This document shows, one piece after another, positions 1 through 13,105 of a stretch of DNA of 58,750 nt. The notes beneath the pieces are model-generated. The model saw only the letters and a program-made list of their open reading frames with translations, was not told where the DNA came from and ran no database searches. Source of the DNA: Lujinxingiaceae bacterium (GTDB lineage: Bacteria; Myxococcota_A; Bradymonadia; Bradymonadales; Bradymonadaceae); NCBI GenBank assembly GCA_013697635.1, contig JACCWM010000149.1, positions 1-58,750 of the forward strand, read 5' to 3'. The stretch's first letter is position 1; each line of letters begins with the position of its first letter. The position numbers and the translations under genes were made by a program.

Positions 1-57
1 CGGGCTGCCCCCTCCAAATTGGGCGGCAGCATCATACGTCAATTGTCTGGTTTGCAT
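1..57 (-). CDS. 5' end of a leftward gene, cut by the window edge (possible IS gene)
   Basis: Only the first 19 codons are inside the window (ATG at 57, reading leftwards: MQTRQLTYDAAAQFGGGSP). The start is supported by an excellent Shine-Dalgarno sequence, AGGAGG, seven bases upstream. The peptide is too short to assign a family. The neighbouring 21-bp direct repeats (76-120) look like the multiple end-repeats of IS21-type elements, so an IS-borne gene is the best guess, but this is inference. Confidence 0.5.
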   Translation of the reverse strand, partial: MQTRQLTYDAAAQFGGGSP

Positions 58-75
58 CGTTCTTCCTCCTGACGA

Positions 76-120
76 GGGGGTCAATTCCTCGTGTCGTCAG
101 GGGGTCAATTTCTCATGTCG
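76..120. repeat. Two 21-bp direct repeats, probable insertion-sequence terminus
   Basis: GGGGGTCAATTCCTCGTGTCG-type sequence occurs at 76-96 and again at 100-120 with two mismatches (period 24). Repeated GGGTCAATTT...TGTCG blocks just inside an element end are typical of IS21-family termini, where the transposase binds. The element's outer end would then lie near 127-129 (…CTAACACA). No target duplication can be seen from one end only. Confidence 0.45.
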
Positions 121-190
121 CCTAACACACGGTACGCCACGCCCAGGCGAATAATCCCTGCCTCTAAGCGGTTTTGGCCTCGGTAATTTG

Positions 191-225
191 CTGGCGACTC
201 AGGTCGGCAAAACCTGACTCGCCAG
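191..225. repeat. Strong inverted repeat upstream of the lipid-operon promoter
   Basis: Arms 191-204 (CTGGCGACTCAGGT) and 212-225 pair over 13 of 14 positions, with one C-C mismatch and a 7-base loop. It lies 18 bases before the predicted -35 box at 243. It is not followed by a T-run, so it may be an operator or an insulating hairpin between the IS end and the operon rather than a classical terminator. Confidence 0.5.
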
Positions 226-242
226 TCACATAAAATCAAGTC

Positions 243-272
243 TTGACAAGGATTTAGCCGACCCACTATCTA
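243..272 (+). promoter_or_regulatory. Sigma70-type promoter for the Elb-like operon
   Basis: A perfect -35 box TTGACA (243-248), an 18-base spacer and a -10 box TATCTA (267-272) predict transcription from about 279. A TTG codon at 276 that would extend the first gene overlaps this promoter and would not be within the mRNA, so the ATG at 372 is preferred as the start. Confidence 0.6.
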
Positions 273-371
273 CCATTGACCGTTCTTGTAGGGCACACGC
301 GCCCCTCTTCACCACACGACGCCAGCTACGAGATAGACGCGCCTGGTCCACTTCGCGGGAACCTAGAGTTT

Positions 372-1055
372 ATGGCAGTTCAAGATGCTCCACGACGCAC
401 CGCCGCCTTCTACGACGTCGACGGCACGCTGATCAAGACCAACGTCGTGCACGCCTACGCCTACTACGCGCTCAATTCGCCGAAGGTCTCCGACAAGCTC
501 ACCAAGACCACGGGCTTGTTGGCGAGCTTGCCGTTTTACTGGATCGCGGACAAGTTCGACCGGCGCGTGTTCAACGAGCACTTCTATAAAAACTACGCGG
601 GCTTTAGCGAAGACCGCCTGATCGTGCTCGGCGAGGAGGTCTTTGAGAAGATCATCAAGCCCAACATCTTTCCGGGTGCGCTCTCGCTGATCAAGCGCTC
701 GCGTGACCAGGGCCACGACCAGATCCTGGTCACGGGCGCGCTCGACGTGGTCACCAAACCGCTGGCCGAGTACTTCAAGGTCGACGACTTTGTGGCCAAC
801 TCGCTCGAGATCAAAGACGGTTTTGCTACGGGGCGTCTGAACAACCCGATGATCGCCGGCGCCAACAAGGCGCTGTGGCTTCGCCGCTATGCCGAGCAGC
901 ATGGCTACGACCTCGATGGCTCGTTTGCCTACGCCGACAGCGGCTCCGATATCCCGCTGCTCTCGGTGGTGGGACATCCCTGCGCCGTCAACCCCGACTT
1001 TCGCATGCGCACCAACGCCCGGGCCTACAACTGGCCCGTGGTCGACCTGACTTGA
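372..1055 (+). CDS. HAD-superfamily (subfamily IB) phosphatase, Elb-like operon gene 1
   Basis: 227-residue SerB-like HAD hydrolase. The nucleophile motif DVDGTLIKT is near the N-terminus; the conserved Ser/Thr is in LVTGALD; the acidic metal-binding motif is in YADSGSDIPLL, followed by HPCAVNPD, which is typical of subfamily IB members linked to phospholipid or acyltransferase genes. The likely reaction is dephosphorylation of a small phosphate ester, perhaps a lyso-phosphatidate-like lipid intermediate given the downstream PlsC and acyl-ligase domains; the substrate is inferred. ATG 372 is chosen because the promoter at 243-272 overlaps the alternative TTG 276; the Shine-Dalgarno is weak. 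The next gene starts 56 bases downstream. A related gene occurs, as I recall, in the Myxococcus elb cluster. Confidence 0.8.
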   Translation: MAVQDAPRRTAAFYDVDGTLIKTNVVHAYAYYALNSPKVSDKLTKTTGLLASLPFYWIADKFDRRVFNEHFYKNYAGFSEDRLIVLGEEVFEKIIKPNIFPGALSLIKRSRDQGHDQILVTGALDVVTKPLAEYFKVDDFVANSLEIKDGFATGRLNNPMIAGANKALWLRRYAEQHGYDLDGSFAYADSGSDIPLLSVVGHPCAVNPDFRMRTNARAYNWPVVDLT

Positions 1056-1061
1056 GCCACA

Positions 1062-1081
1062 CGGCCGCCTCGGTGCGGCCG
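1062..1081 (+). terminator. GC-rich hairpin between operon genes 1 and 2
   Basis: CGGCCGC (1062-1068) pairs perfectly with GCGGCCG (1075-1081) across a 6-base loop and is followed by CTTTCT. The T-run is poor, so it may be a partial attenuator or an mRNA-stabilising stem rather than a full stop, since the next gene has the same orientation and its own good ribosome binding site. Confidence 0.35.
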
Positions 1082-1111
1082 CTTTCTGCGATAAGCCCGT
1101 AAAGGATCGGA

Positions 1112-2707
1112 ATGACTGATTCACCCAAGCCCTATAATCCGGTGCGCTTTCTCGACGACGACTCCGCGCCGCGCTACTTGCACTACGGCGAGGATTTTTT
1201 GACCGCGAAGTTCCCGGCCGGAACGCGCGTCGTCTACGCCAACCCGCCGATGAAGCCCATCGAGAACCGGGGCGCGGCGATTCGCTACGCGCTCAACAAT
1301 CCTGAAGGCGGCGTGCCTCCGCTCTATGCTCAGCTCAAGCCGGGTATGAAGGTCTCGATTGCGATCGACGACATCAGCGTACCGCTGCCGCCGATGCGCA
1401 CCCCGGACATCCGCCAGCAGGTGCTCGAGATCGTGCTGGGCATCCTCAAGGACCACGGCGTCGAGGACATCGAGCTCATCGTCGCGCTGGCCCTTCATCG
1501 ACCGATGACCGCCGCCGAGGTCAAGCGCATGGTCGGCGCCGAGATCTTTGCCGAGCACTGGCCCAAGACGCTCTACAACATGGACGCCGAAGACGAAGAG
1601 AACATGGTCGTCATCGGCACCACGCGCCACGGCGAGGATGTGCAGGTCGTGCGGCGCGTAGCAGAGAGCGATCTGCTGATCTATGTGAACATCAATTTTG
1701 TGCCGATGAACGGCGGCTTCAAGTCGATCGGCACGGGCCTGTCCGGCTACAAGGGCATTCGCCACCATCACAACCCGCAGACCATCCTCAAGTCCAACTC
1801 CTACATGGATCCGGAGAAGAGCGCGCTCTACGACTCGAACACGCGCATGGGCAAGATCTTCAACGAGAAGATCAACGTTTTCCACATCGAGACCGCGCTC
1901 AATAACAAGATGTACGACGACCAGCTCAGCTTCTTGGCGCGCCCCGAGGACGACTGGACGCCGGCCGAGAACATCAAGTTCAAGACCATGCAGTGGGCGC
2001 TGCAAAAGCTGCCGCGCGCGGCCAAGCGCGCCTTCTTCCACAAGATTCCGGCCGACTACGGTCTGGTCGGCGTGTTTGCCGGCGCCACCGAAGCGGTGCA
2101 CGAAAAAACCCTGCAAAAGTGCTGGCAGCAGCACGCCGTCAAGCTCGAGGGCCAGTGCGACGTGCTCGTCTACGGCATCCCCTTTGAGAGCCCGTACAAC
2201 GTCAACTCGATCCTCAACCCGCTGCTCGTGCGGGTCATGGCGCTGGGCTATTTCTTCAACATGTACCGCAACAAGCCGGTCATCAAGAAGGGCGGCACGC
2301 TGATCGTCACGCACCCCTGCTACGACGACTTCGACCCGGAGCATCACCCGAGCTACATCGAGTTCTTCAATCGATGCCTGCCCGAGACGCGCGACTCAGT
2401 GGAGCTACAAGACCGCTGGGAAAAAGAGTTCGCCACCAACCCGAACTACATCCAGATGTACCGCACCGGAAACGCCTACCACGGCGTGCATCCGTTCTAC
2501 ATGTGGTACTGGGCCGAGAACGGCCAGGCCCACGTCGGTCGCGTGATCGTCGTTGGCGCCGAGAACGACCATGTGCCCGAGCGCCTGGGCTGGCTGCAAG
2601 CCAAGACCATGGACGACGCTCTGGAGATGGCCCGCGAGTTTCACGGGCCCAGCCCGGAGATCACGTTGATGCACCACCCCCCGTTCGTCATCGCCGACGT
2701 AGAGTGA
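1112..2707 (+). CDS. LarA-like (DUF2088, nickel-dependent lactate racemase family) protein, Elb-like operon gene 2
   Basis: 531 residues, about 100 longer than typical LarA. The N-terminal half carries the family pattern: IAIDDISVPLPPMRTPDIR followed by ALHRPMTAAEVKRMVG, equivalent to the substrate/cofactor-proximal DD(I/V)xRp and GxHrpxT motifs of LarA, and later a His cluster (IRHHHNPQ) in the region facing the nickel-pincer cofactor site. LarA homologues racemise or epimerise 2-hydroxy acids, but many paralogues have other, unknown substrates. Start ATG 1112 follows AAAGGA (1101-1106) at good spacing. It lies 43 bases before the multidomain enzyme, so co-transcription is likely. A DUF2088 gene in this position matches my recollection of the myxobacterial ether-lipid cluster; its reaction there is not known to me. 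Confidence 0.75.
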   Translation: MTDSPKPYNPVRFLDDDSAPRYLHYGEDFLTAKFPAGTRVVYANPPMKPIENRGAAIRYALNNPEGGVPPLYAQLKPGMKVSIAIDDISVPLPPMRTPDIRQQVLEIVLGILKDHGVEDIELIVALALHRPMTAAEVKRMVGAEIFAEHWPKTLYNMDAEDEENMVVIGTTRHGEDVQVVRRVAESDLLIYVNINFVPMNGGFKSIGTGLSGYKGIRHHHNPQTILKSNSYMDPEKSALYDSNTRMGKIFNEKINVFHIETALNNKMYDDQLSFLARPEDDWTPAENIKFKTMQWALQKLPRAAKRAFFHKIPADYGLVGVFAGATEAVHEKTLQKCWQQHAVKLEGQCDVLVYGIPFESPYNVNSILNPLLVRVMALGYFFNMYRNKPVIKKGGTLIVTHPCYDDFDPEHHPSYIEFFNRCLPETRDSVELQDRWEKEFATNPNYIQMYRTGNAYHGVHPFYMWYWAENGQAHVGRVIVVGAENDHVPERLGWLQAKTMDDALEMAREFHGPSPEITLMHHPPFVIADVE

Positions 2708-2750
2708 TTTTTGGCGCCGCCGAATCCATGATTTTCCGCAGGAATTGAAC

Positions 2751-5700
2751 ATGTCGACCCAGAAGAACGGCCACGATCCCCATCAGACCAACGGCCATCA
2801 GGCCAATGGCCACGCCAACGGCGCCGCCGGTGCAGCCGTGCTCGCAAGGCTCGAGCCGCTGGCCTTGGCTGAACAGGCCAGTTGGTCGGTCTCCGAGAGC
2901 TTGCGCCATCGGCGCATTCTGATCACGGGAACGACCGGCTTTTTGGCCAAGGTCGTCATGTCGATGATGCTGCGCTTTCACCCGGATATCGAGCAGATCT
3001 ATCTGGTGATCCGCGGAAGCAAGCGCCAGAGTGCCCAGGATCGCTTCTTCGATGTGGTCGCCCCCTCGGGCGCGCTGGAGCCGCTTCGCGAGATTTACGG
3101 CGACGGCTATCTAGACTTTCTGCGCGAAAAGATCACGGTCTTGGGCGGCGACGTCTGCGAGCCGTTTTTGGGCATACCTGAGGACGAAGCCCGCGCGATC
3201 TCGAGCAAGCTCGACGTGTTCATTCACTCGGCCGGCCTGACAAACTTCAACCCCAACTTGAAGAATGCGCTCGAGATCAACACCCTGGCGATGCGCAACA
3301 TCGTCGAGTTCATCCGCCTGGGCGGCTGCCACTGCTCGCTGCAGCACATCTCGACGACCTTTGTTGCCGGCGCCGCCAAGAAGCCCTCGCCAGAGATTTT
3401 CCCCGGCCCCAAGGTTTATCCGGCCTACGACGATCTCAAGATCGACTACGACGCTGAGCGCGAGATCGCCGATTGTCTGGCGCTCATCAACCACACCGAA
3501 GCGCTCTCGCGCGACCAGGAGCACCACAGCCGCTTCAGCGTCGAGGCCAACGAGAAGCTCAAGAAGCACAACCTCGACCCCAACGATCCCGTCGCCTTCG
3601 ACAAGGCCTACGAGAAGATTCGCGACAACTGGGTGGCACGCCGCCTCTCCAAGGAAGGCCGCGAGCGCGCCGCGCACTGGGGTTGGCCCAACATCTACAC
3701 GTACACCAAATCGCTTGGCGAGCGCGTGTTGGTCGCGGTCTCCGACGAGATCAACCTCTCGATCGTGCGCCCGGCGATCATCGAGAGCGCGCTCAACTTT
3801 CCCGAACCCGGCTGGAACGAGGGCATCAACACGACAGCCCCGCTGTGCTTCTTGGTCTACAAGGGCCACCGATTCGTACCCACGCGCGACGGCCTGCATC
3901 TCGACGTGATCCCCGTCGACTTTGTCGCCGGCGCCATGATCGCGATCACCGCCGCGCTGATCGAGCGCCGCCAGCACGACGTCTACCACCTGGGCTCGAG
4001 CGACAAGAACCCGGTCACCGTCGCTCGCCTCGTCGAGATGACCAGCCTGGCGACACGAAAGCTGATCGACCGCGACGTGAAGATGCCCGGTTGGAAGAAG
4101 ATCGTGCTCAAGTCGCTCGACGGCCGCGGCGTGGAGAAGGCCACCTTCGACCGGCGCTCGGCGCCGGCGTTTACCCGCGCGCTCACCGGGCTCTCGGGCT
4201 TGATCGACCGCATGCCGACGCGCTCGATGGGCGGCGTTGGCAAAGCCCTCGACGTGGTCAAGAAGAACGCCCAGGCCGCCGAGTCGATGACCACGGCGAT
4301 CTCGAAGATCTTCGATCTCTTCATGCCGTTTACCCACGACAACAAGCTCACCTTTTTGGCGCGCAACATCGGCGAGCTGGCGAGCGGGCTCAACGCCGCC
4401 GAGCGCGAGCGCTACGGCTCGCCGATTGAAACGCTGAACTGGCGCACGTACTGGCTCGATGTCCACGTGCCCGGCCTCGCCAGGCTGGCCTACCCGGAGC
4501 TCGAAGCCAAGTTTCGCGAGAACAACAAGGAAGTCTACACCTACGACGACCTGCTCGAGCTCTTTGACGCCAGCGCCTACAACTTCGAGCGCCGCGTCGC
4601 CATGCAGCACCATCACGGCGGAATCACCGAGCGCTACACCTACGGCGAGCTCAAAGAGCGCGCCGATCGCGCCGCGCTGTTCTTGCAAGGCATCGGCGTT
4701 GGCACGGGTCGCCCCGTGCTGCTCGTCGCCGAGAATCGCCCGCAATGGGGCATGGCCTACTTTGGCATCCTCAAGACGGGCGGCATCGGCGTGCCTGTCG
4801 ACTCGTCCTCGAACACGGCGCAGATCGTCAACGTCGCCGAGTCCTGTCGGGCTCAGGCGATCGTGGTCAGCGAGACGGTCTTTGAGCGCCTCGGCCGCGA
4901 GCTCGAAGACACCTTAGCCGCGCACGCCCTGCCCGTTCGCGTGGTCACCTTTGCCCAGCTCTTTACGCTGGCACTGAGCGCCGAGCCGGCCGCCGGAAAT
5001 GCCTTTGCAGCCTCCGACGACGCGATCTCCACCGCGCTCGTCGCAGCCTCGAGCGCCGGCAATCCGCTGGCCAGCCTGATCTACACCTCCGGCACCACGG
5101 GCAACCCCAAAGGGGTCATGCTCACGCACAAGAACTTCACCAACCTGCTCTCGAGCCTCAACCAGACCTTTCGCATCAGCGAGCGCGACGGCTTCTTGAG
5201 CGTGTTGCCCCTGCACCATACCTTCGAGTTCGCCTGCGGCTTTTTGATGCCGCTGTCGCGTGGCTCGACCATCACCTACATGGAAGAGATCAGCGGCGAC
5301 GAGCTCAGCTCCGCGCTAAGCTCGACGCGCGTCACCGCGCTGATCGGCGTGCCTGCCCTGTGGCAGCTGCTCTACCGTCGCATCGACCAGAAGATCGACG
5401 ACTCGCCGGCGCCGGTTCGCATCGCCTTCAACAACATGCTCGAGCTTAACAAGGCGCTGCGTGAGCGCTTTGGCATCAACCTGGGCTCGATGCTCTTTGG
5501 TGCGGTGCACCAGGGCTTTGGCGGGCGCATCAAGTACTTGATCTCGGGCGGCGCAGCGCTGCCCGAATCCGTGCTCAAGGCCTTTTACGGCATGGGCTTT
5601 GACCTCTACGAGGGCTACGGCCTCACCGAGGCCGCGCCGGTGCTCACGGTCAACAGCCCGGGCAAGGGTTTTTTCCCCGGAAGCGTGGGCAAGGCTTTGC

Positions 5701-7580
5701 CGGGCATCGAGATCGACATCAGCCAGCCCAACGCCGAGGGCGTTGGCGAGGTCATCGCCCGCGGGCCCAACGTCATGCTCGGCTATCTGGGCCGCGACGA
5801 AGAGACCGAGAAGACCATCAAGGATGGCTGGCTCTACACAGGCGATCTCGGCCGCGTCGACGCCAAGGGCCGCCTGACGATCGTGGGCCGCGAAAAAGAG
5901 ATCATCGTCACCTCCGGCGGCAAGAACGTCTATCCCGACGAGCTCGAAGAGCTCTACGGCAAGTGCCCGGGCGTGCTCGAATTCTCGGTCGTCGGCCTGC
6001 CCGACGGCCAGGGCAGCGAGCGCGTCGCCTGTCTGATCCGCCCCGATCTCGACGACCAATCCGACGCGCGCCAGATCGCCGAGGCGCGCGCCTCGATCCG
6101 CGAGTGGATTCGCGTCGAGGGCGCCCGCGTTCAGCCCCACAACCGCCTCCAGGTGCTGCGCTTTTGGGACGAGGAGTTTCCACGCACGGCTACGCGCAAG
6201 GTTAAGCGTCGCGATGTCGTCGCCATCCTCGAGCGCCTCATGGCCGCCGAGGAGCAAACCTCGCTGTCCACCGACGTCGACGACACGACCTGGACCTGGC
6301 TCGACAAGGCGCTGGGCAAGCTGTCCGATTTCGACCCGGCCCGCATCCACAATGCAACGCATGTGCTCGACGACCTGGGCTTTGACAGCCTGATGTTCGT
6401 TGAGCTCGCCAGCATCCTGGAAGCGCGCGGCTACCATGTCGTGCCCGAGCGCCTCGCTCAGGTGCAGACCGTCGGCGAGCTGCAAGCGATCCTCTCGGGC
6501 AAGGCCTCGGCCTCGACCGCGCTTGTGCTGGTCGGCGAGCGATCGCCTTCGGCGGTCGACGAGATGGCGATCAACGCCTCGTTTGCCCGCATGACCAAGC
6601 AGGCGCTCTACCTGGGCCAGATGCGCGCCTACGGGCGATTCTTCGACGTCGAGGTCTTCGGGCGCTCGAACATCCCGCACCACGATCCCAACCTGATCGT
6701 GATCGCAAACCACACCAGCCACCTCGACATGGGGTTGATCAAGTTTGCGCTTGGCGACTTTGGCACCGACATCCGCGCTCTGGCTGCCGCCGATTACTTC
6801 TTCAGCAACAAGGCACGCAAGACCTTCTTCAAGAACTTCACCAACCTGCTGCCCGTAGAACGCTCCGGCTCGCTCGAGCGCTCGCTTGGAAACGCCACCG
6901 AAGCGCTTCGCGGCGGCGAGATGTTGCTCATGTTCCCCGAAGGCACCCGCTCGACCGACGGCAAGATCAAGCCCTTTCGCCGCGGCCTGGGCTATCTGGT
7001 CGACGCGCAGGTCGTCGATATTTTGCCGATCTATATCGAAGGCACCTACCGCGCGCTGCCCAAGGGCCGCAAGTTTCCCTCGGTCACCTCGCGCCGCCTC
7101 AAGGTCTATATCGGCAAGGCGCTGAGCGCCCACGCGCTGCGAAAAGAGGCCAAGGACATGAGCCCCACCGAGCGCTTCGAGCACATCAGCAAGCGCGCCC
7201 AGGAAGCCGTCGAGGCGCTGCGCGATGCGCGCGGCGGCTCCAACGCCAACAAGGTCGAGCTCGCCCTCGAGCCGCTCTTTACGTCGCTTCCGGCCAAGTT
7301 CGAGCGCAATCAAGTCAACAGCCCGGTGAGCTTTTATTTCAGCCTCGGAAACTACGACCACCACAAGTGGACCGTCTCGGTCAACGCCGACAAGTGCGCC
7401 ATCCACCAGGGTAAGCCCAACAACGGCCAGGCCGACTGCGTGATCAAGACCAGCCCCGAGATTTTCCGCAAGATCGTCGAAGAGAGCTACGTTCCCTCGC
7501 TCGACGAGTTCATGAACGGCGCGATCAAGACCAACGACCCTGACCTGCTGCTGCGCTTTCAAGCCGTCTTTCGGCTCTGA
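2751..7580 (+). CDS. elbD: ElbD-like multidomain ether-lipid enzyme: FAR - acyl-ligase - ACP - PlsC - SCP2
   Basis: 1609 residues. After an Asn-Gly-His-rich leader: (1) fatty-acyl reductase/male-sterility domain, TGTTGFLAK near 60 and YTYTKSLGE near 318; (2) AMP-forming acyl ligase, about 600-1130, with YTSGTTGNPKG near 778, YEGYGLTE near 955, YTGDLG and GREKEIIVTSGGKNVYP near 1045; (3) acyl carrier domain, GFDSL with the phosphopantetheine serine near 1213; (4) PlsC acyltransferase with NHTSHLD near 1320 and FPEGTRS near 1395; (5) a C-terminal SCP2/sterol-carrier-like domain from about 1500. All key motifs look intact. Together they could activate a fatty acid, hold it on the ACP, reduce it and transfer acyl groups to glycerol phosphate. 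The architecture resembles ElbD of Myxococcus xanthus, reported to make ether lipids needed for development. ATG 2751 is preferred over TTG 2745 because GCAGGA is six bases upstream. Confidence 0.8.
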   Translation: MSTQKNGHDPHQTNGHQANGHANGAAGAAVLARLEPLALAEQASWSVSESLRHRRILITGTTGFLAKVVMSMMLRFHPDIEQIYLVIRGSKRQSAQDRFFDVVAPSGALEPLREIYGDGYLDFLREKITVLGGDVCEPFLGIPEDEARAISSKLDVFIHSAGLTNFNPNLKNALEINTLAMRNIVEFIRLGGCHCSLQHISTTFVAGAAKKPSPEIFPGPKVYPAYDDLKIDYDAEREIADCLALINHTEALSRDQEHHSRFSVEANEKLKKHNLDPNDPVAFDKAYEKIRDNWVARRLSKEGRERAAHWGWPNIYTYTKSLGERVLVAVSDEINLSIVRPAIIESALNFPEPGWNEGINTTAPLCFLVYKGHRFVPTRDGLHLDVIPVDFVAGAMIAITAALIERRQHDVYHLGSSDKNPVTVARLVEMTSLATRKLIDRDVKMPGWKKIVLKSLDGRGVEKATFDRRSAPAFTRALTGLSGLIDRMPTRSMGGVGKALDVVKKNAQAAESMTTAISKIFDLFMPFTHDNKLTFLARNIGELASGLNAAERERYGSPIETLNWRTYWLDVHVPGLARLAYPELEAKFRENNKEVYTYDDLLELFDASAYNFERRVAMQHHHGGITERYTYGELKERADRAALFLQGIGVGTGRPVLLVAENRPQWGMAYFGILKTGGIGVPVDSSSNTAQIVNVAESCRAQAIVVSETVFERLGRELEDTLAAHALPVRVVTFAQLFTLALSAEPAAGNAFAASDDAISTALVAASSAGNPLASLIYTSGTTGNPKGVMLTHKNFTNLLSSLNQTFRISERDGFLSVLPLHHTFEFACGFLMPLSRGSTITYMEEISGDELSSALSSTRVTALIGVPALWQLLYRRIDQKIDDSPAPVRIAFNNMLELNKALRERFGINLGSMLFGAVHQGFGGRIKYLISGGAALPESVLKAFYGMGFDLYEGYGLTEAAPVLTVNSPGKGFFPGSVGKALPGIEIDISQPNAEGVGEVIARGPNVMLGYLGRDEETEKTIKDGWLYTGDLGRVDAKGRLTIVGREKEIIVTSGGKNVYPDELEELYGKCPGVLEFSVVGLPDGQGSERVACLIRPDLDDQSDARQIAEARASIREWIRVEGARVQPHNRLQVLRFWDEEFPRTATRKVKRRDVVAILERLMAAEEQTSLSTDVDDTTWTWLDKALGKLSDFDPARIHNATHVLDDLGFDSLMFVELASILEARGYHVVPERLAQVQTVGELQAILSGKASASTALVLVGERSPSAVDEMAINASFARMTKQALYLGQMRAYGRFFDVEVFGRSNIPHHDPNLIVIANHTSHLDMGLIKFALGDFGTDIRALAAADYFFSNKARKTFFKNFTNLLPVERSGSLERSLGNATEALRGGEMLLMFPEGTRSTDGKIKPFRRGLGYLVDAQVVDILPIYIEGTYRALPKGRKFPSVTSRRLKVYIGKALSAHALRKEAKDMSPTERFEHISKRAQEAVEALRDARGGSNANKVELALEPLFTSLPAKFERNQVNSPVSFYFSLGNYDHHKWTVSVNADKCAIHQGKPNNGQADCVIKTSPEIFRKIVEESYVPSLDEFMNGAIKTNDPDLLLRFQAVFRL

Positions 7581-7594
7581 ATCGAGAGACTCCT

Positions 7595-8665
7595 ATGACC
7601 ACACTCGTCACCGGCGCCACTGGCTTTTTGGGCCGCCATCTCGTCGACCAGCTCCTCGCGCGTGGCGAGCACGTACGTGCCCTGACGCGCTCCTTTGACC
7701 TCGAACTAGCCGATCTCGGTGTCGAGATCGTCGAAGGAGACTTCACCGATCCCGAGGCGCTCGAGCGCGCCGTCGACGGCGTCAGCCACGTCTACCATCT
7801 GGCCGGCAAGGTCGAACGCGACCCCAGCCATGCCCACCGCATGTACTCGCTTCATGTCGATGGTACTCGCCATCTGCTCGCGGCGCTTCGCACCCAAAAG
7901 CTCGAGAAGATCGTCGTCGCCTCGACCAGCGGCACCGTCGGCGTTGGCACCAGCCCCAACTTCATGGCAACCGACGACTCGCCGACCGTCGAACTGCTCG
8001 TCAAGAGCTGGCCCTATTACCTCTCGAAGATCTATGCCGAGCGCGTCTGCCAGGACGCGATCGACGATCACGCCATGCCGATCGTCATGATGCGCCCCAC
8101 CCTGCTGCTCGGACCCGGCGACCGGCGCGAAAGCTCGACCGGCGACGTCGTGCTCTTCATGCAAAAGAAGATCCCAAGCTCGATGTCCGGTGGCATCTCC
8201 TTTGTCGACGCCCGCGACACAGCCCAGGCCTTCATCCTGGCCATGGACAAGGCCCCGGTGGGCGCAAAGTACCTGCTCGGCGCCTGCAACCTCACGCTGG
8301 CCGACTTCTTCAAGCGTCTTGAGGAGCTCAGCGGCGTCAAAGCCCCGTGGCTTCCGATCCCCGATCGCGCCGCGCTCTTTGGCACCAAGCTGCTCGATGC
8401 CGCCTTTCGCTCGGTAGGAAAGCGACCCGATCTCGACCCGGTCAGCGTCGATATGGCCCGCCATTTCTGGTATATCGACTCCACGCGCGCCCAGGACGAG
8501 CTCGGCTGGACTCCCCGAAACGCCAACGAGACCCTGCGCGACACGGTGCGGTGGATCGAGCGTCACCACCCCGAGTTTGCTCCGCGCAACGTGCGCAAGC
8601 TGCCTCCGGCGGGCTTCGTGCCCCAGGAGACGCTCGACTACGCGGCCAAGAATCGCGCGGAGTAA
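7595..8665 (+). CDS. elbE: Extended SDR (NAD-dependent epimerase/dehydratase), ElbE-like
   Basis: 356 residues. The N-terminal Rossmann motif TLVTGATGFLGRHL is followed by an acidic stretch and the catalytic pair in YYLSKIYAERV (YxxxK), with upstream STSGTVG providing the Ser. It belongs to the 3-beta-HSD/HpnA-like extended SDR group and probably oxidises or reduces a lipid hydroxyl or keto group with NAD(P). It starts 14 bases after the multidomain enzyme, in the same operon, and closes the four-gene set. Its place after elbD fits the ElbE position in the myxobacterial cluster as I remember it, so the symbol is tentative. The exact substrate cannot be read from sequence. Confidence 0.7.
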   Translation: MTTLVTGATGFLGRHLVDQLLARGEHVRALTRSFDLELADLGVEIVEGDFTDPEALERAVDGVSHVYHLAGKVERDPSHAHRMYSLHVDGTRHLLAALRTQKLEKIVVASTSGTVGVGTSPNFMATDDSPTVELLVKSWPYYLSKIYAERVCQDAIDDHAMPIVMMRPTLLLGPGDRRESSTGDVVLFMQKKIPSSMSGGISFVDARDTAQAFILAMDKAPVGAKYLLGACNLTLADFFKRLEELSGVKAPWLPIPDRAALFGTKLLDAAFRSVGKRPDLDPVSVDMARHFWYIDSTRAQDELGWTPRNANETLRDTVRWIERHHPEFAPRNVRKLPPAGFVPQETLDYAAKNRAE

Positions 8666-8708
8666 CAGGGCTTGTCTGCTTTGCCCCACCCAAAATCGCG
8701 TTCTAAGA

Positions 8709-10928
8709 TTACGAGAACCGCGCGATCGCGATGCCCAGGTTGTCGCCGCCGCCGCCACGATTGGCCAACAAGATGAGCTCGAGGCAGGCCAGCGACGGGT
8801 CCGCCTCGGCCAGCATCACCGCGAGGATATTGTCCTCGGCTGCCAACGAGTTTGCGCCGCCAAAATCGGTGAGGCCGTCGGTCGTCCAAAGCACGGTATC
8901 GCCGCGGGCCACCGTGAAACGAAAGAAGTCCGCCTGAGGCGGTACGGCGTGCAGGCGGCCCTGCTGAACGAGGAAGGTGCCAAGGCAGCGCGCGAGCGCG
9001 TCGCCGTGCGGCATGGCCAGGGCACTGTCGGCCGAGACGCCCTCGAGGATGCTGAGCGTCCACAAGTTGTGGTCGATCGTTATCTGCTCGAGACCCGCGC
9101 CGCGTTGTAAATACGTGCGGCTGTCTCCAAGGCTTGCCAGAGTGATGACACCGTGGCGCACGATGGCGATGAGCGCCGTTGAGCCCATGACCTCGTGCGG
9201 ACTACCCTGAAAGGGCGTGAACTTGGAATTGACGTAGTCGACGATGCGCTGGTTCGCCTTGTTGAGGATGCTCTGGATCAGGGCGACGTCGTCCATCGGC
9301 TCATCCATCAGATACGATGGCAGCATGTCCTCCCACGCCAGCACGGCCTCCTCGGCCAGCGCTTTGCTGGCAAGATCACCGGAGCCAAAGCTCGCTGTCG
9401 AGACCCCGTCGGCGACGACAATCAGGCCAAAACGCGTGTCGTCGGCCATGGCCGAGAACACGTGATCCTGATTGGTCGGATTACGCCGCTTCTTGGCAAT
9501 GCCAATATGGGTATCGGAGGCAAGTTTCATCCCCGGTGCGGCACTGGGCGAGAGGTTCGAGCGCAGCTCGACGACGTCACAGGCCTCGTCAAAGGCTCTG
9601 CGAAACTCCTGGACGTTGGGATAGCGGTCCTGCGGATGCGGACGAGTCGCACGCGCGATCACCGGCTGCAGTCCCGGTGGAAAGGCCGGCCGAAAGCAGC
9701 GCGCCGGAATCGCCGGCGAGTGACGCGTGTAGACCGATGCCGGAGGAATCTCGCCTGCCACCAAATAATACAGCAGCATGCCCAGCGAGAAGATATCGGC
9801 CAATTCGCCGACCGGCGCGCGTGATCGGCCCATCATCTCCGGCGCAGAAAAACCCATGACCACCGAGCTGATCTCGATATCAGTGCCGATTGAAAAGAAG
9901 TCCATGACGCCGTCGAACAGCCCGGCAAGCGAGGGGGACAACTCCGGCGAGCTGTGCGAGACCTCACTGATCTCGGCCGACGAGCCCGTGCTGAGATCCG
10001 CCTCAAATATACTCGCCTCGGAGAGATCACGCTCGACGCTGGCAGACACGCCCGCATGGTCTCGGCTCGTCAGCGTCAGCGGTGGAACATCGACGAGAGT
10101 CGCGCCCCGATCACTGAATGGGTTGGCGGCCGCCGACGCATCCTCGACCGCGTCAACCGCTGACTCAGAGAACGTCTCTTCGACCAGGCCACGTGGCTCG
10201 GAGCCACTTGACTCGGCCGGCGGTGCGGTCAAATAGTCGTCGAACGCCTGCTGCAAAAAGATCCGTGGAAAGCCGTCGTCGGAGTTTCGATCGAGGATGC
10301 GTACATTCCATGGGGCGAGACGCAAATGCAAGTGATCGGTCTCGTGCAGCCGTGACATCAGGTCGAGCACGGCCGAGAAGATGTCGCGTACCTGCGGGAA
10401 GAGCAGCTGGCCCTGAGAGATGTCGACGATCTCCTCGATCGTCATCCCGGCATTGTCCACAAACACGCTGACATCGTGCTCGCCGTGTTGGCCGCGAGCC
10501 AGGGGTTGGCGCACGAGCGCTTGAACCGAGGCGCTCAGCGCGCTGGTTGACGCACGGTTGGCGTTGCTGCTCTCTTCGATCAGATAGGTTTGTTTTTTGA
10601 GTGCCTCGATCAACACCTGGGCAACGGATGCGTCGAGACCCGAACCCGTGGCGCTGACCTCAACGGCAGTGGCGACAAAGACGCGCCGGGTCGCGTAGTG
10701 CTCGAGCAACTCGTCCATCTTGAAGCTGACGAGCAACCCCTCAGGCGCGCCCTCCAACTTCAAGGCGGTGGCATCGATTGCGGCACCAAAGCCACTTCCA
10801 GGAGTCAGCCACAAGCTCTTGGCTGGTGAATCAGTAGCCACAGCCCTTGAAGCACCACAATAGTCACACCATTGCGTGTCCGAGCCATGCTCACCACACT
10901 CCGGACAACGCGTCTCCGTTACGGGCAT
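8709..10928 (-). CDS. Zinc-ribbon / pseudokinase / PP2C phosphatase fusion
   Basis: 739 residues. The N-terminus is a zinc ribbon (CPECGEHGSDTQWCDYCG, CxxC twice). A kinase-like region follows: HLHLRLAPWNVRIL near 198 replaces the catalytic HRDLKPEN, so Asp is missing, and about 130 Ser/Glu-rich residues separate it from a C-lobe (GFSAPEMM near 358, ADIFSLGMLLYYLVAGEIPP). This part is therefore a likely pseudokinase. The C-terminal ~270 residues are a PP2C Ser/Thr phosphatase with TNQD, VVADGVS, SLGDSR, TTDGLTD and GGGDNLG, so the metal-binding aspartates are present. It is probably cytoplasmic, reversing phosphorylation by kinases such as the one at 33693-35384, which also has a zinc-ribbon head. 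Start ATG 10928 follows AGGAAAG; a GTG at 10979 would add 17 residues. Confidence 0.8.
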   Translation of the reverse strand: MPVTETRCPECGEHGSDTQWCDYCGASRAVATDSPAKSLWLTPGSGFGAAIDATALKLEGAPEGLLVSFKMDELLEHYATRRVFVATAVEVSATGSGLDASVAQVLIEALKKQTYLIEESSNANRASTSALSASVQALVRQPLARGQHGEHDVSVFVDNAGMTIEEIVDISQGQLLFPQVRDIFSAVLDLMSRLHETDHLHLRLAPWNVRILDRNSDDGFPRIFLQQAFDDYLTAPPAESSGSEPRGLVEETFSESAVDAVEDASAAANPFSDRGATLVDVPPLTLTSRDHAGVSASVERDLSEASIFEADLSTGSSAEISEVSHSSPELSPSLAGLFDGVMDFFSIGTDIEISSVVMGFSAPEMMGRSRAPVGELADIFSLGMLLYYLVAGEIPPASVYTRHSPAIPARCFRPAFPPGLQPVIARATRPHPQDRYPNVQEFRRAFDEACDVVELRSNLSPSAAPGMKLASDTHIGIAKKRRNPTNQDHVFSAMADDTRFGLIVVADGVSTASFGSGDLASKALAEEAVLAWEDMLPSYLMDEPMDDVALIQSILNKANQRIVDYVNSKFTPFQGSPHEVMGSTALIAIVRHGVITLASLGDSRTYLQRGAGLEQITIDHNLWTLSILEGVSADSALAMPHGDALARCLGTFLVQQGRLHAVPPQADFFRFTVARGDTVLWTTDGLTDFGGANSLAAEDNILAVMLAEADPSLACLELILLANRGGGGDNLGIAIARFS

Positions 10929-11040
10929 ACCATCTTTCCTGGGTCGAACAGTTAGCGCGCACGAGGTCGGCCCGGGCACACCCGTAGGCGCTCTGGCGCA
11001 AGGCCACCGCCGTAGCCGGTTTTGCGATTCTTGCGAAGCC

Positions 11041-13086
11041 TCAATATAGACTTTGGCTCGTGCACAAGCCGCTTTCTTTCATATCTTCGATGATTTCGGG
11101 AGCGTGGCCAGCGAGCGAGGCCGGATACAGGGTATCCACATCAAAGATCGTCGCCTGGCCGTTCTGCCAGTGAATGCGCGCTACGTCCCAGAACTGGCCG
11201 CCCGCCGACATGCGCATGTGCAGTCGCTCGTAGACGAGTTGTGTGTTGATGTAGACGCGCACGGTCGCATAGGCGGTGCCGAACTGCTCGCGAAAGTAAT
11301 GCACGCCGATGGCGTACCACTGACATTCTTCCGGGTTGTCCAGGGTGATGTTCTCCGGGCCGGCGCCCGAGGTGACGTCGATATCCAAGCTCGGCGACTC
11401 CGGGCTCCAGATCGCGCCCTTGCCCGGGTTGGCGTTGTTGTAGAAAACGTCGTAAGGAACCAGAAACCACCTGCCAGGACCCATCTTGGTCAAGTGCAAG
11501 TCGAGGTCGCTGCCGGTGTTGTCGCTCTCGTCAGGATCGGAGGGGTTGGTCCAGGTCAGCTCGATGTGCACCTTCTGGTTGGGAATGGCCTGAATGGTCA
11601 CCACCGCTTGCTCGCAAGAGCGAAAGCCCTCGTTGTCGACCACGTTGAGACCGATCTTGTAGGTACCGGCTGTAAAGAGGCGGAACTCACGACGGTTCGT
11701 ATCGGTGCTGTTTCCAACCGGACCCAGGGTCACGATCGTGCCCGAGGGCTTCTCCAGCACTTCCCAATCGTAGGAGACCACGGAGCCGTCCGGGTCGCTG
11801 CTCTGGCGCCCGTCGAGGACGATGTACTGAAGCGGAACCGCGCTCAGCTCGGTGCGCGCGGTCGAGGAGACGCCCTTGATCGTGCCGGTGGCGACGGCTA
11901 TCGGGCAGACGCCATCGGAGCCGCGTGCCACAAGGTCAAGCTCAAGCTCGGGCTGGACCGGGTCGTTGCTCGAGATCACGACCTTGCCGCGCTCGGTGGC
12001 CGGCTGCTCGGGCGTAAACTGAATCGCGAAGGTCGTATTGGCGCTGGGAGCGAGAATAATTGGATTGTCGATCCGACCGTCGCCGTTGGCATCCCAGCTA
12101 CCCAGATTCAACTCGAAGAAGGCCGTACCTTCGGTGACGGCGATGCTGCTGATGTTGAGCGGCTGCGTGCCACAATTGCTCACCGTGACGATGTCGGTCG
12201 CGTTGCCACCAATTGGAACCTGGCCCAGGTTGCGCGTGCGACCATCGACAAGGATGCAAGGCGCATCGGCGTTGGCCTGAACGACGACCTTGCGAAGGCC
12301 ACGCGTTGGATCGTTGGGGTTAACGTCGCGCACGTCATTGGAGACGATCAGGACCTCGCCAGTGTCAGCGTTGGCGCCGGCCGGAGCATAGACGACGTTG
12401 ATATCGAGCACGTAATCTTGCGGGCTGGTAGCCTCGAGCGCGGCGTCGTAGACCTTCAACGACAACGGATAGGTGCGGTTGGGAAGCTCGATGCGGAAGT
12501 CGCCGCCACCGGTGTAGACGGGCGCTTCATGCAAAATCAGGGGCGCCGAACCGACGTTGATGATTTGCAGGGTTTGCTCGGCGCGGCCTCCAGGAAGCAT
12601 GCGCGCAAAGCGCACGCTCGCCGGGCGAACATCGAGCTGCGGGCGACTGGCCAGCGTATCGACATTGACGAAGAGCGGATTGGTCGCACTGTATCGAGGA
12701 TCGTTACCCAGAATGCGGATTCGGCCCTTGTTGACGCTTTGCGTCGTGGGCGAGTACTCGACCTGGAAGATGAAGTCACCGCCCGCTGGCACGCGAACAG
12801 GCAGTGGTCCAACGCCGAGCAACTTCAAGTCGCCGATCGCGCCGCCATCATTGGACTCGAGGGCGAGTGTCTGAATGACGAGCTCGTTTTGGGAGAGATT
12901 CAAGACCGTCACGTCTTCGGTCGCCGATTCACCCAGATTGACCTGAGAGAACGCCACGCTCAGCGGCGAGACCTGAATGACCGCGGTCTCCACCTTACCG
13001 ACGTCACCTGGGCCGCAGGCGGCCCCGAGCAATAGAAAACTGAAAAGAATCGAAAGACGAACAAGCATCACTCTTGGCATGGACAT
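11041..13086 (-). CDS. Surface lipoprotein with choice-of-anchor-D/Ig-like and PKD domains
   Basis: About 681 residues. The signal peptide ends in lipobox LLLGAAC, so it is a predicted lipoprotein. Two or three ASPM/HYDIN-like 'choice-of-anchor D' Ig repeats follow (patterns such as VAFSQVNLGESATEDVTVLN and VRFARMLPGGRAEQTLQIIN, and later IVTVSNCGTQPLNISSI). Then a PKD domain (LDGRQSSDPDGSVVSYDWEV) and a C-terminal DLDLHL domain with a WSPE/DNPEEC segment, common in large Myxococcota surface proteins. Likely displayed on the outer membrane; no enzymatic motif is seen, so a binding or structural role is inferred. ATG 13086 or 13080 are possible starts. A promoter with perfect TTGACA lies at 13158-13186. 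Confidence 0.75.
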   Translation of the reverse strand: MSMPRVMLVRLSILFSFLLLGAACGPGDVGKVETAVIQVSPLSVAFSQVNLGESATEDVTVLNLSQNELVIQTLALESNDGGAIGDLKLLGVGPLPVRVPAGGDFIFQVEYSPTTQSVNKGRIRILGNDPRYSATNPLFVNVDTLASRPQLDVRPASVRFARMLPGGRAEQTLQIINVGSAPLILHEAPVYTGGGDFRIELPNRTYPLSLKVYDAALEATSPQDYVLDINVVYAPAGANADTGEVLIVSNDVRDVNPNDPTRGLRKVVVQANADAPCILVDGRTRNLGQVPIGGNATDIVTVSNCGTQPLNISSIAVTEGTAFFELNLGSWDANGDGRIDNPIILAPSANTTFAIQFTPEQPATERGKVVISSNDPVQPELELDLVARGSDGVCPIAVATGTIKGVSSTARTELSAVPLQYIVLDGRQSSDPDGSVVSYDWEVLEKPSGTIVTLGPVGNSTDTNRREFRLFTAGTYKIGLNVVDNEGFRSCEQAVVTIQAIPNQKVHIELTWTNPSDPDESDNTGSDLDLHLTKMGPGRWFLVPYDVFYNNANPGKGAIWSPESPSLDIDVTSGAGPENITLDNPEECQWYAIGVHYFREQFGTAYATVRVYINTQLVYERLHMRMSAGGQFWDVARIHWQNGQATIFDVDTLYPASLAGHAPEIIEDMKESGLCTSQSLY

Positions 13087-13105
13087 ACTCAAATCTGGAC
13101 ATTCT

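Follow-up and report, generated by a model that had tools for sequence, protein, structure and literature searches.

A probable elb ether-lipid operon in a myxococcotal bacterium outside the Myxococcus lineage, with ElbC as a predicted nickel-pincer nucleotide enzyme

The four genes at positions 372-8665 of the window (the whole stretch of 58,750 nucleotides analysed here) raise the question of whether a member of the Myxococcota outside the Myxococcus lineage carries the elb ether-lipid operon and, if so, what its second gene product might contribute. In Myxococcus xanthus, most ether lipids depend on ElbD, whose ligase and carrier domains have been shown to be active, and experiments also support a possible role for ElbE. 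How myxobacteria convert a fatty acid to an alkyl ether has been described as unknown, and a 2022 review lists ElbC as a protein of unknown function (PMC9131029).

An open-reading-frame check places a compact four-gene operon on the forward strand in the order elbB-elbC-elbD-elbE. The elbB-like gene (372..1055, 227 amino acids from the ATG at 372) encodes a HAD-IB phosphatase with matches to PF12710 (3.8e-36) and, above the cut-off, TIGR01490 (2.3e-37). The LarA-superfamily protein ElbC (1112..2707, 531 amino acids) has a Lar_N domain (5.9e-37), and elbD (2751..7580, 1609 amino acids) encodes a five-domain protein composed of a fatty acyl reductase (FAR), an acyl ligase, an acyl carrier (ACP), a PlsC-type acyltransferase, and an SCP2-like domain, as judged from Pfam, homology to M. 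xanthus ElbD, and motifs. The elbE-like gene (7595..8665, 356 amino acids) encodes an NAD(P)-dependent SDR matching Epimerase (PF01370, 2.2e-36); its top NCBIfam match, HpnA, reaches 238 bits and is under the HpnA cut-off. Intergenic gaps of 56, 43, and 14 bp on a single strand fit the operon reading. The first-pass annotation, made from the sequence alone, had named the same four genes (HAD, LarA-like, 1609-residue fusion, and SDR) with the same coordinates and strand, and its domain assignments are backed by Pfam matches far beyond chance, from 5.2e-06 for AMP-binding_C to 2.4e-75 for AMP-binding, with HAD at 3.8e-36. Chance or misassembled open reading frames were ruled out, since orthologous operons are present in many genomes.

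A convergent gene on the reverse strand (8709-10979), whose product combines a PP2C phosphatase domain with a partial match to a kinase, closes the operon downstream and is followed on the same strand (11041-13092) by a gene for a protein with ASPM-SPD-2-Hydin-type Ig-like domains. Upstream of elbB, positions 1-371 at the contig start include a near-duplicated stretch (ggggtcaattcctcgtgtcg / ggggtcaatttctcatgtcg); the assembly may have broken at a repeat here. A promoter and terminator scan of positions 1-9000 found nothing above chance. The ATG of elbD at 2751 is preceded by AGGA, and an in-frame TTG is also present at 2745; ElbD residues are numbered here from the TTG (1611 amino acids), while the ATG gives 1609.

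Within ElbD, all domains lie on the forward strand. The reductase domain NAD_binding_4 (2922..3938; PF07993, 3.2e-47) contains the motifs TGTTGFLAK and YTYTK, and the FAR C-terminal domain “Sterile” (4284..4481; PF03015, 7.3e-05) is a weak match under the cut-off, as it is weak in M. xanthus ElbD too. The AMP-binding acyl ligase has both N and C subdomains (4563..6200; PF00501, 2.4e-75; AMP-binding_C PF13193, 5.2e-06), the phosphopantetheine carrier domain has the sequence GFDSL (6306..6482; PP-binding PF00550, 9e-07), and the PlsC-type acyltransferase has NHTSHLD and FPEGTRS (6648..7037; PF01553, 1.3e-19). The C-terminal SCP2-like lipid-binding domain (7263..7577) is predicted from a weak match to PF02036, a PDB profile, and a predicted fold. 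In an alignment of 37 ElbD sequences (the window protein and 36 homologues), G-x-TGF-x-x-K (NADPH binding), YxxxK, and the AMP-binding loop are conserved; the carrier serine, NHx4D, and FPEGTR are likewise aligned, with single-site differences in a few sequences. The fusion had been proposed to hold motifs for activation, carrier loading, reduction, and acyl transfer in one chain, and the reductase, ligase, carrier, and acyltransferase motifs are indeed all intact. In nine genomes the ElbD match is in two aligned pieces; the gap, at approximately residues 712-770 of the window ElbD and mostly within one open frame, marks a stretch of the ligase domain that differs locally.

For comparison with the characterised operon, M. 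xanthus strain AM003 was located in a named genome collection by an encapsulin sequence identical to PDB 4pt2. A single ElbD-like match was found in AM003; it scores 1144 bits and spans residues 18-1506 of the window ElbD. At this locus (L115) an elbA-like SDR is followed on one strand by ElbB, ElbC, ElbD, and ElbE. Identity between the window and AM003 proteins is 49% for ElbB, 58% for ElbC, 41% over 1505 residues for ElbD, and 45% for ElbE. The elbBCDE genes have equal order and strand in AM003, Archangium, Hyalangium, and Citreicoccus. The likeness to the Myxococcus elb cluster that had been proposed at first reading is therefore confirmed in gene order and strand, in near full-length homology of ElbD, and in the order FAR, ligase, ACP, and PlsC; four ElbD domains are shared with the M. 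xanthus system (elbA-elbE, MiBIG BGC0000871, VEPE/AEPE/TG-1). No elbA is seen in the 371 bp that the contig covers upstream of elbB, and no elbA-like match was found in the single-contig relatives (L124-L126); elbA has been reported to be dispensable (PMC9131029). Sequence comparison thus makes it probable that these genes form an ether-lipid operon orthologous to elbBCDE, in a species of Myxococcota that does not belong to the Myxococcus lineage. Published occurrences of the elb/VEPE cluster include Haliangium, Labilithrix, Chondromyces, Vulgatibacter, Anaeromyxobacter, and others (PMC12766979), elbD homologues are reported from many phyla (PMC11868695), and spread beyond Myxococcus has been published (PMC9131029, PMC12766979, PMC11868695). 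The window operon is therefore a further instance of a known cluster: the suggestion that it would reveal spread across the phylum is correct as to the occurrence outside Myxococcus, but this spread is not first shown here.

Genes elsewhere in the window genome bear on the lipid product. Two AGPS-like proteins are encoded on the reverse strand, at L121:5682-7295 and L123:4493-6145, and their best PDB matches are AGPS (4e-73 and 7e-61); the former is near a PlsC-type acyltransferase gene (L121:3113-4582), an arrangement that recalls the MXAN_1676-1675 operon. These genes would allow the ether bond to be made by separate AGPS-like proteins while the operon makes another lipid, such as a wax-like ester, a modified glycerolipid, or a signalling lipid. 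The ElbD motifs would suit any acyl activation, reduction, and transfer, and some elbD-bearing bacteria show no ether lipids, with Pontiella, which has an elbD homologue and in which no ether lipids were found, counting against the ether-lipid reading (PMC11868695). However, the entire operon is conserved, and in M. xanthus elbD is the major ether-lipid gene while disruption of the AGPS-like gene has only a minor effect (PMC9131029), so that another product for the operon is considered unlikely. A CarF/TMEM189-like desaturase is encoded on the reverse strand of contig C47 (L120:4609-5343; NF045946, 1.4e-68, under the cut-off). The two AGPS-like proteins and the CarF-like protein would fit an ether-lipid producer, and with them a plasmalogen route is possible. 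A CarF-like desaturase is present in 17 of 21 sampled members of the window genome's family; the CarF Pfam family, which includes other desaturases too, is found in 76 of 284 genomes, and CarF is said to be mostly confined to a single suborder, Cystobacterineae (PMC9131029).

The five-domain form of ElbD differs from the characterised enzyme, because M. xanthus ElbD does not have the C-terminal SCP2-like domain. The window protein scores 16.0 bits against PF02036 (E 0.015), below the gathering score of 21.3, and the domain is therefore named SCP2-like only. Weak matches to PF02036 were obtained for 24 of 25 homologous ElbD C-termini (best 3.6e-07), and a PDB profile match also backs the assignment. 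The predicted fold (AlphaFold, pLDDT 84.7) resembles SCP2 and alkylsulfatase C-terminal domains with Z scores of 11-13 (best 13.1), including 1ikt (Z 11.6, rmsd 2.7, 104 aligned). An SCP2 fold in the C-terminus is thus supported by sequence and by the modelled structure; the first-pass annotation's call was right according to homologues, profile, and fold, but is weak by sequence, with the window protein itself under the Pfam cut-off. The SCP2/alkylsulfatase C-terminal family (PF02036, PF14864) has the same predicted fold, while the domain of ElbD is fused to an acyl-activating enzyme. Residues ~1507-1611 are absent from all five Myxococcaceae and from three related families (f25, f30, and f32), whereas the window's class and families f14, f28, f34, and f50 have them. 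When a tree was built from the portion of ElbD common to all sequences, the eight that lack the domain grouped together in a single clade (support 1.0). One loss or one gain would explain this distribution, and midpoint rooting favours loss. The SCP2-like domain is therefore a part without counterpart in the characterised M. xanthus ElbD, yet it is found in most other sampled ElbD clades.

The second gene product can be placed more closely. ElbC matches the NCBIfam model NF052592, “NPN-dependent hydroxyacid isomerase, LarAH14/15/16 family,” with 853 bits (cut-off 740), and both the Lar_N domain and the LarA fold are present. Its nearest solved structures are the single-histidine LarA-like proteins 9q3k from Streptococcus plurextorum (Z 38.5) and 9q3j from Blautia wexlerae (Z 36.1) (PMC12611868), and true lactate racemases rank behind these by sequence and by fold. 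In 29 of 29 ElbC orthologues, including that of M. xanthus and down to 50% identity, D87, H129, K204, and H220 are invariant. In addition to the superfamily fold, ElbC has in these residues the equivalents of D72 (ribose Asp), H108 (catalytic), K184 (NPN Lys), and H200 (Ni ligand) of LarA from Lactiplantibacillus plantarum, with K204 and H220 assigned by alignment to 9q2u. In contrast, LarA H174 and R75 have no equivalents: the R75 position is V, L, or M in the 29 orthologues, and the H174 equivalent is missing from all of them, with invariant N193 and N195 alongside. Because this second catalytic histidine is missing, ElbC was not filed as a canonical racemase. The two single-histidine proteins have in common with ElbC the fold, one catalytic His, the NPN Lys, the Ni-ligand His (K+16), and the ribose Asp; however, identity is only ~22-26%, and the gene context is lipid for ElbC but carbohydrate for theirs. 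In a pairwise alignment their Asn185/187 correspond to a four-residue gap in ElbC, beside which N193 and N195 are found.

LarA superfamily groups 14 and 15 are reported to be without H174, and one single-histidine LarA-like enzyme has been solved loaded with NPN (PMC12611868). Another hydride-mediated reaction has been suggested for enzymes without H174, and Frankia LarAH14 was inactive on the substrates tested (PMC7583248). Phytophthora LarAH15 is a gluconate epimerase (PMC11770544), but this activity was not transferred to ElbC, since PMC11770544 numbers by enzyme and its LarAH15 may differ from group 15 of PMC7583248. On the residues and structures described above, ElbC is probably a nickel-pincer nucleotide (NPN) enzyme of the single-histidine type. 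The NCBIfam name would also suit an ordinary 2-hydroxyacid racemase or epimerase acting in precursor supply or recycling, with only a loose tie to lipids. Among 284 Myxococcota genomes, however, 81 have both ElbC and ElbD, three have one alone, and 200 have neither, with the two less than 1 kb apart in 57 genomes; this near-perfect co-occurrence, together with the missing second histidine, makes an ordinary racemase improbable. Neither the coupling nor the link to NPN was found in the literature searched, where no paper tied elbC to LarA or NPN.

In the window genome, the NPN-synthesis genes larE-larB-larC are side by side (L119:4553-7565), all above curated cut-offs, and ElbC is the sole Lar_N protein, as it is in about 30 ElbC genomes. 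The five Myxococcaceae likewise each encode LarC, and ElbC is their one Lar_N protein; in M. xanthus LarB adjoins LarC, while LarE was not located within the 11 kb searched. Overall, 77 of 82 ElbC genomes and 130 of 202 others carry LarC, and it is found in good-quality genomes in 56 of 57 with ElbC versus 84 of 136 without (p ~1e-8, uncorrected for phylogeny). However, LarC occurs in at least 81 ElbC-negative Myxococcota genomes in which no Lar_N protein could be detected, so LarC alone is no proof that ElbC uses NPN, and the argument from LarC that ElbC is its sole client was kept as suggestive only. Some of these LarC-only genomes may have divergent LarA proteins, as weak matches in family f5 suggest; their NPN user may be too divergent for Lar_N detection. 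There is accordingly some chance, although clearly the smaller one, that ElbC is a LarA-fold protein no longer using NPN, with a structural or other catalytic role. The frequency of LarC without any Lar_N protein and the absence of H174 and R75 equivalents are consistent with this, as is the judgement that group 16, which is in the same NCBIfam model, does not retain NPN-binding residues (PMC7583248). The invariance of the four remaining NPN-site and catalytic residues, the NPN-loaded structure among the nearest single-histidine enzymes, and the retention of larEBC in a genome with ElbC as the only Lar_N protein all argue instead for NPN use.

The chemistry that we infer for ElbB, ElbC, and ElbE, and with it the lipid product in the source organism, can be set out as a pathway. 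ElbD would adenylate a fatty acid, load it on its own carrier domain, and reduce it to an aldehyde or alcohol; its PlsC domain would acylate the glycerol backbone, and the SCP2-like domain would hold the lipid chain or pass it on. For ElbE, the SDR next to the M. xanthus AGPS gene suggests reduction of a keto intermediate, perhaps an alkyl-dihydroxyacetone-phosphate, while ElbB would act as a phosphatase, for instance on a phosphatidate-like product. ElbC would contribute an NPN-borne hydride-transfer step to the same pathway. A bolder and doubtful proposal is that ElbC, as an organonickel NPN enzyme, supplies the redox reaction that is missing from the AGPS-independent Elb route, and perhaps even forms the ether bond; myxobacterial ether-lipid synthesis would then be nickel-dependent. 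If ElbC is an NPN enzyme, it would be a testable candidate for the missing ether chemistry in the genetically tractable M. xanthus, and would provide a function for a LarA group that has so far had none known.
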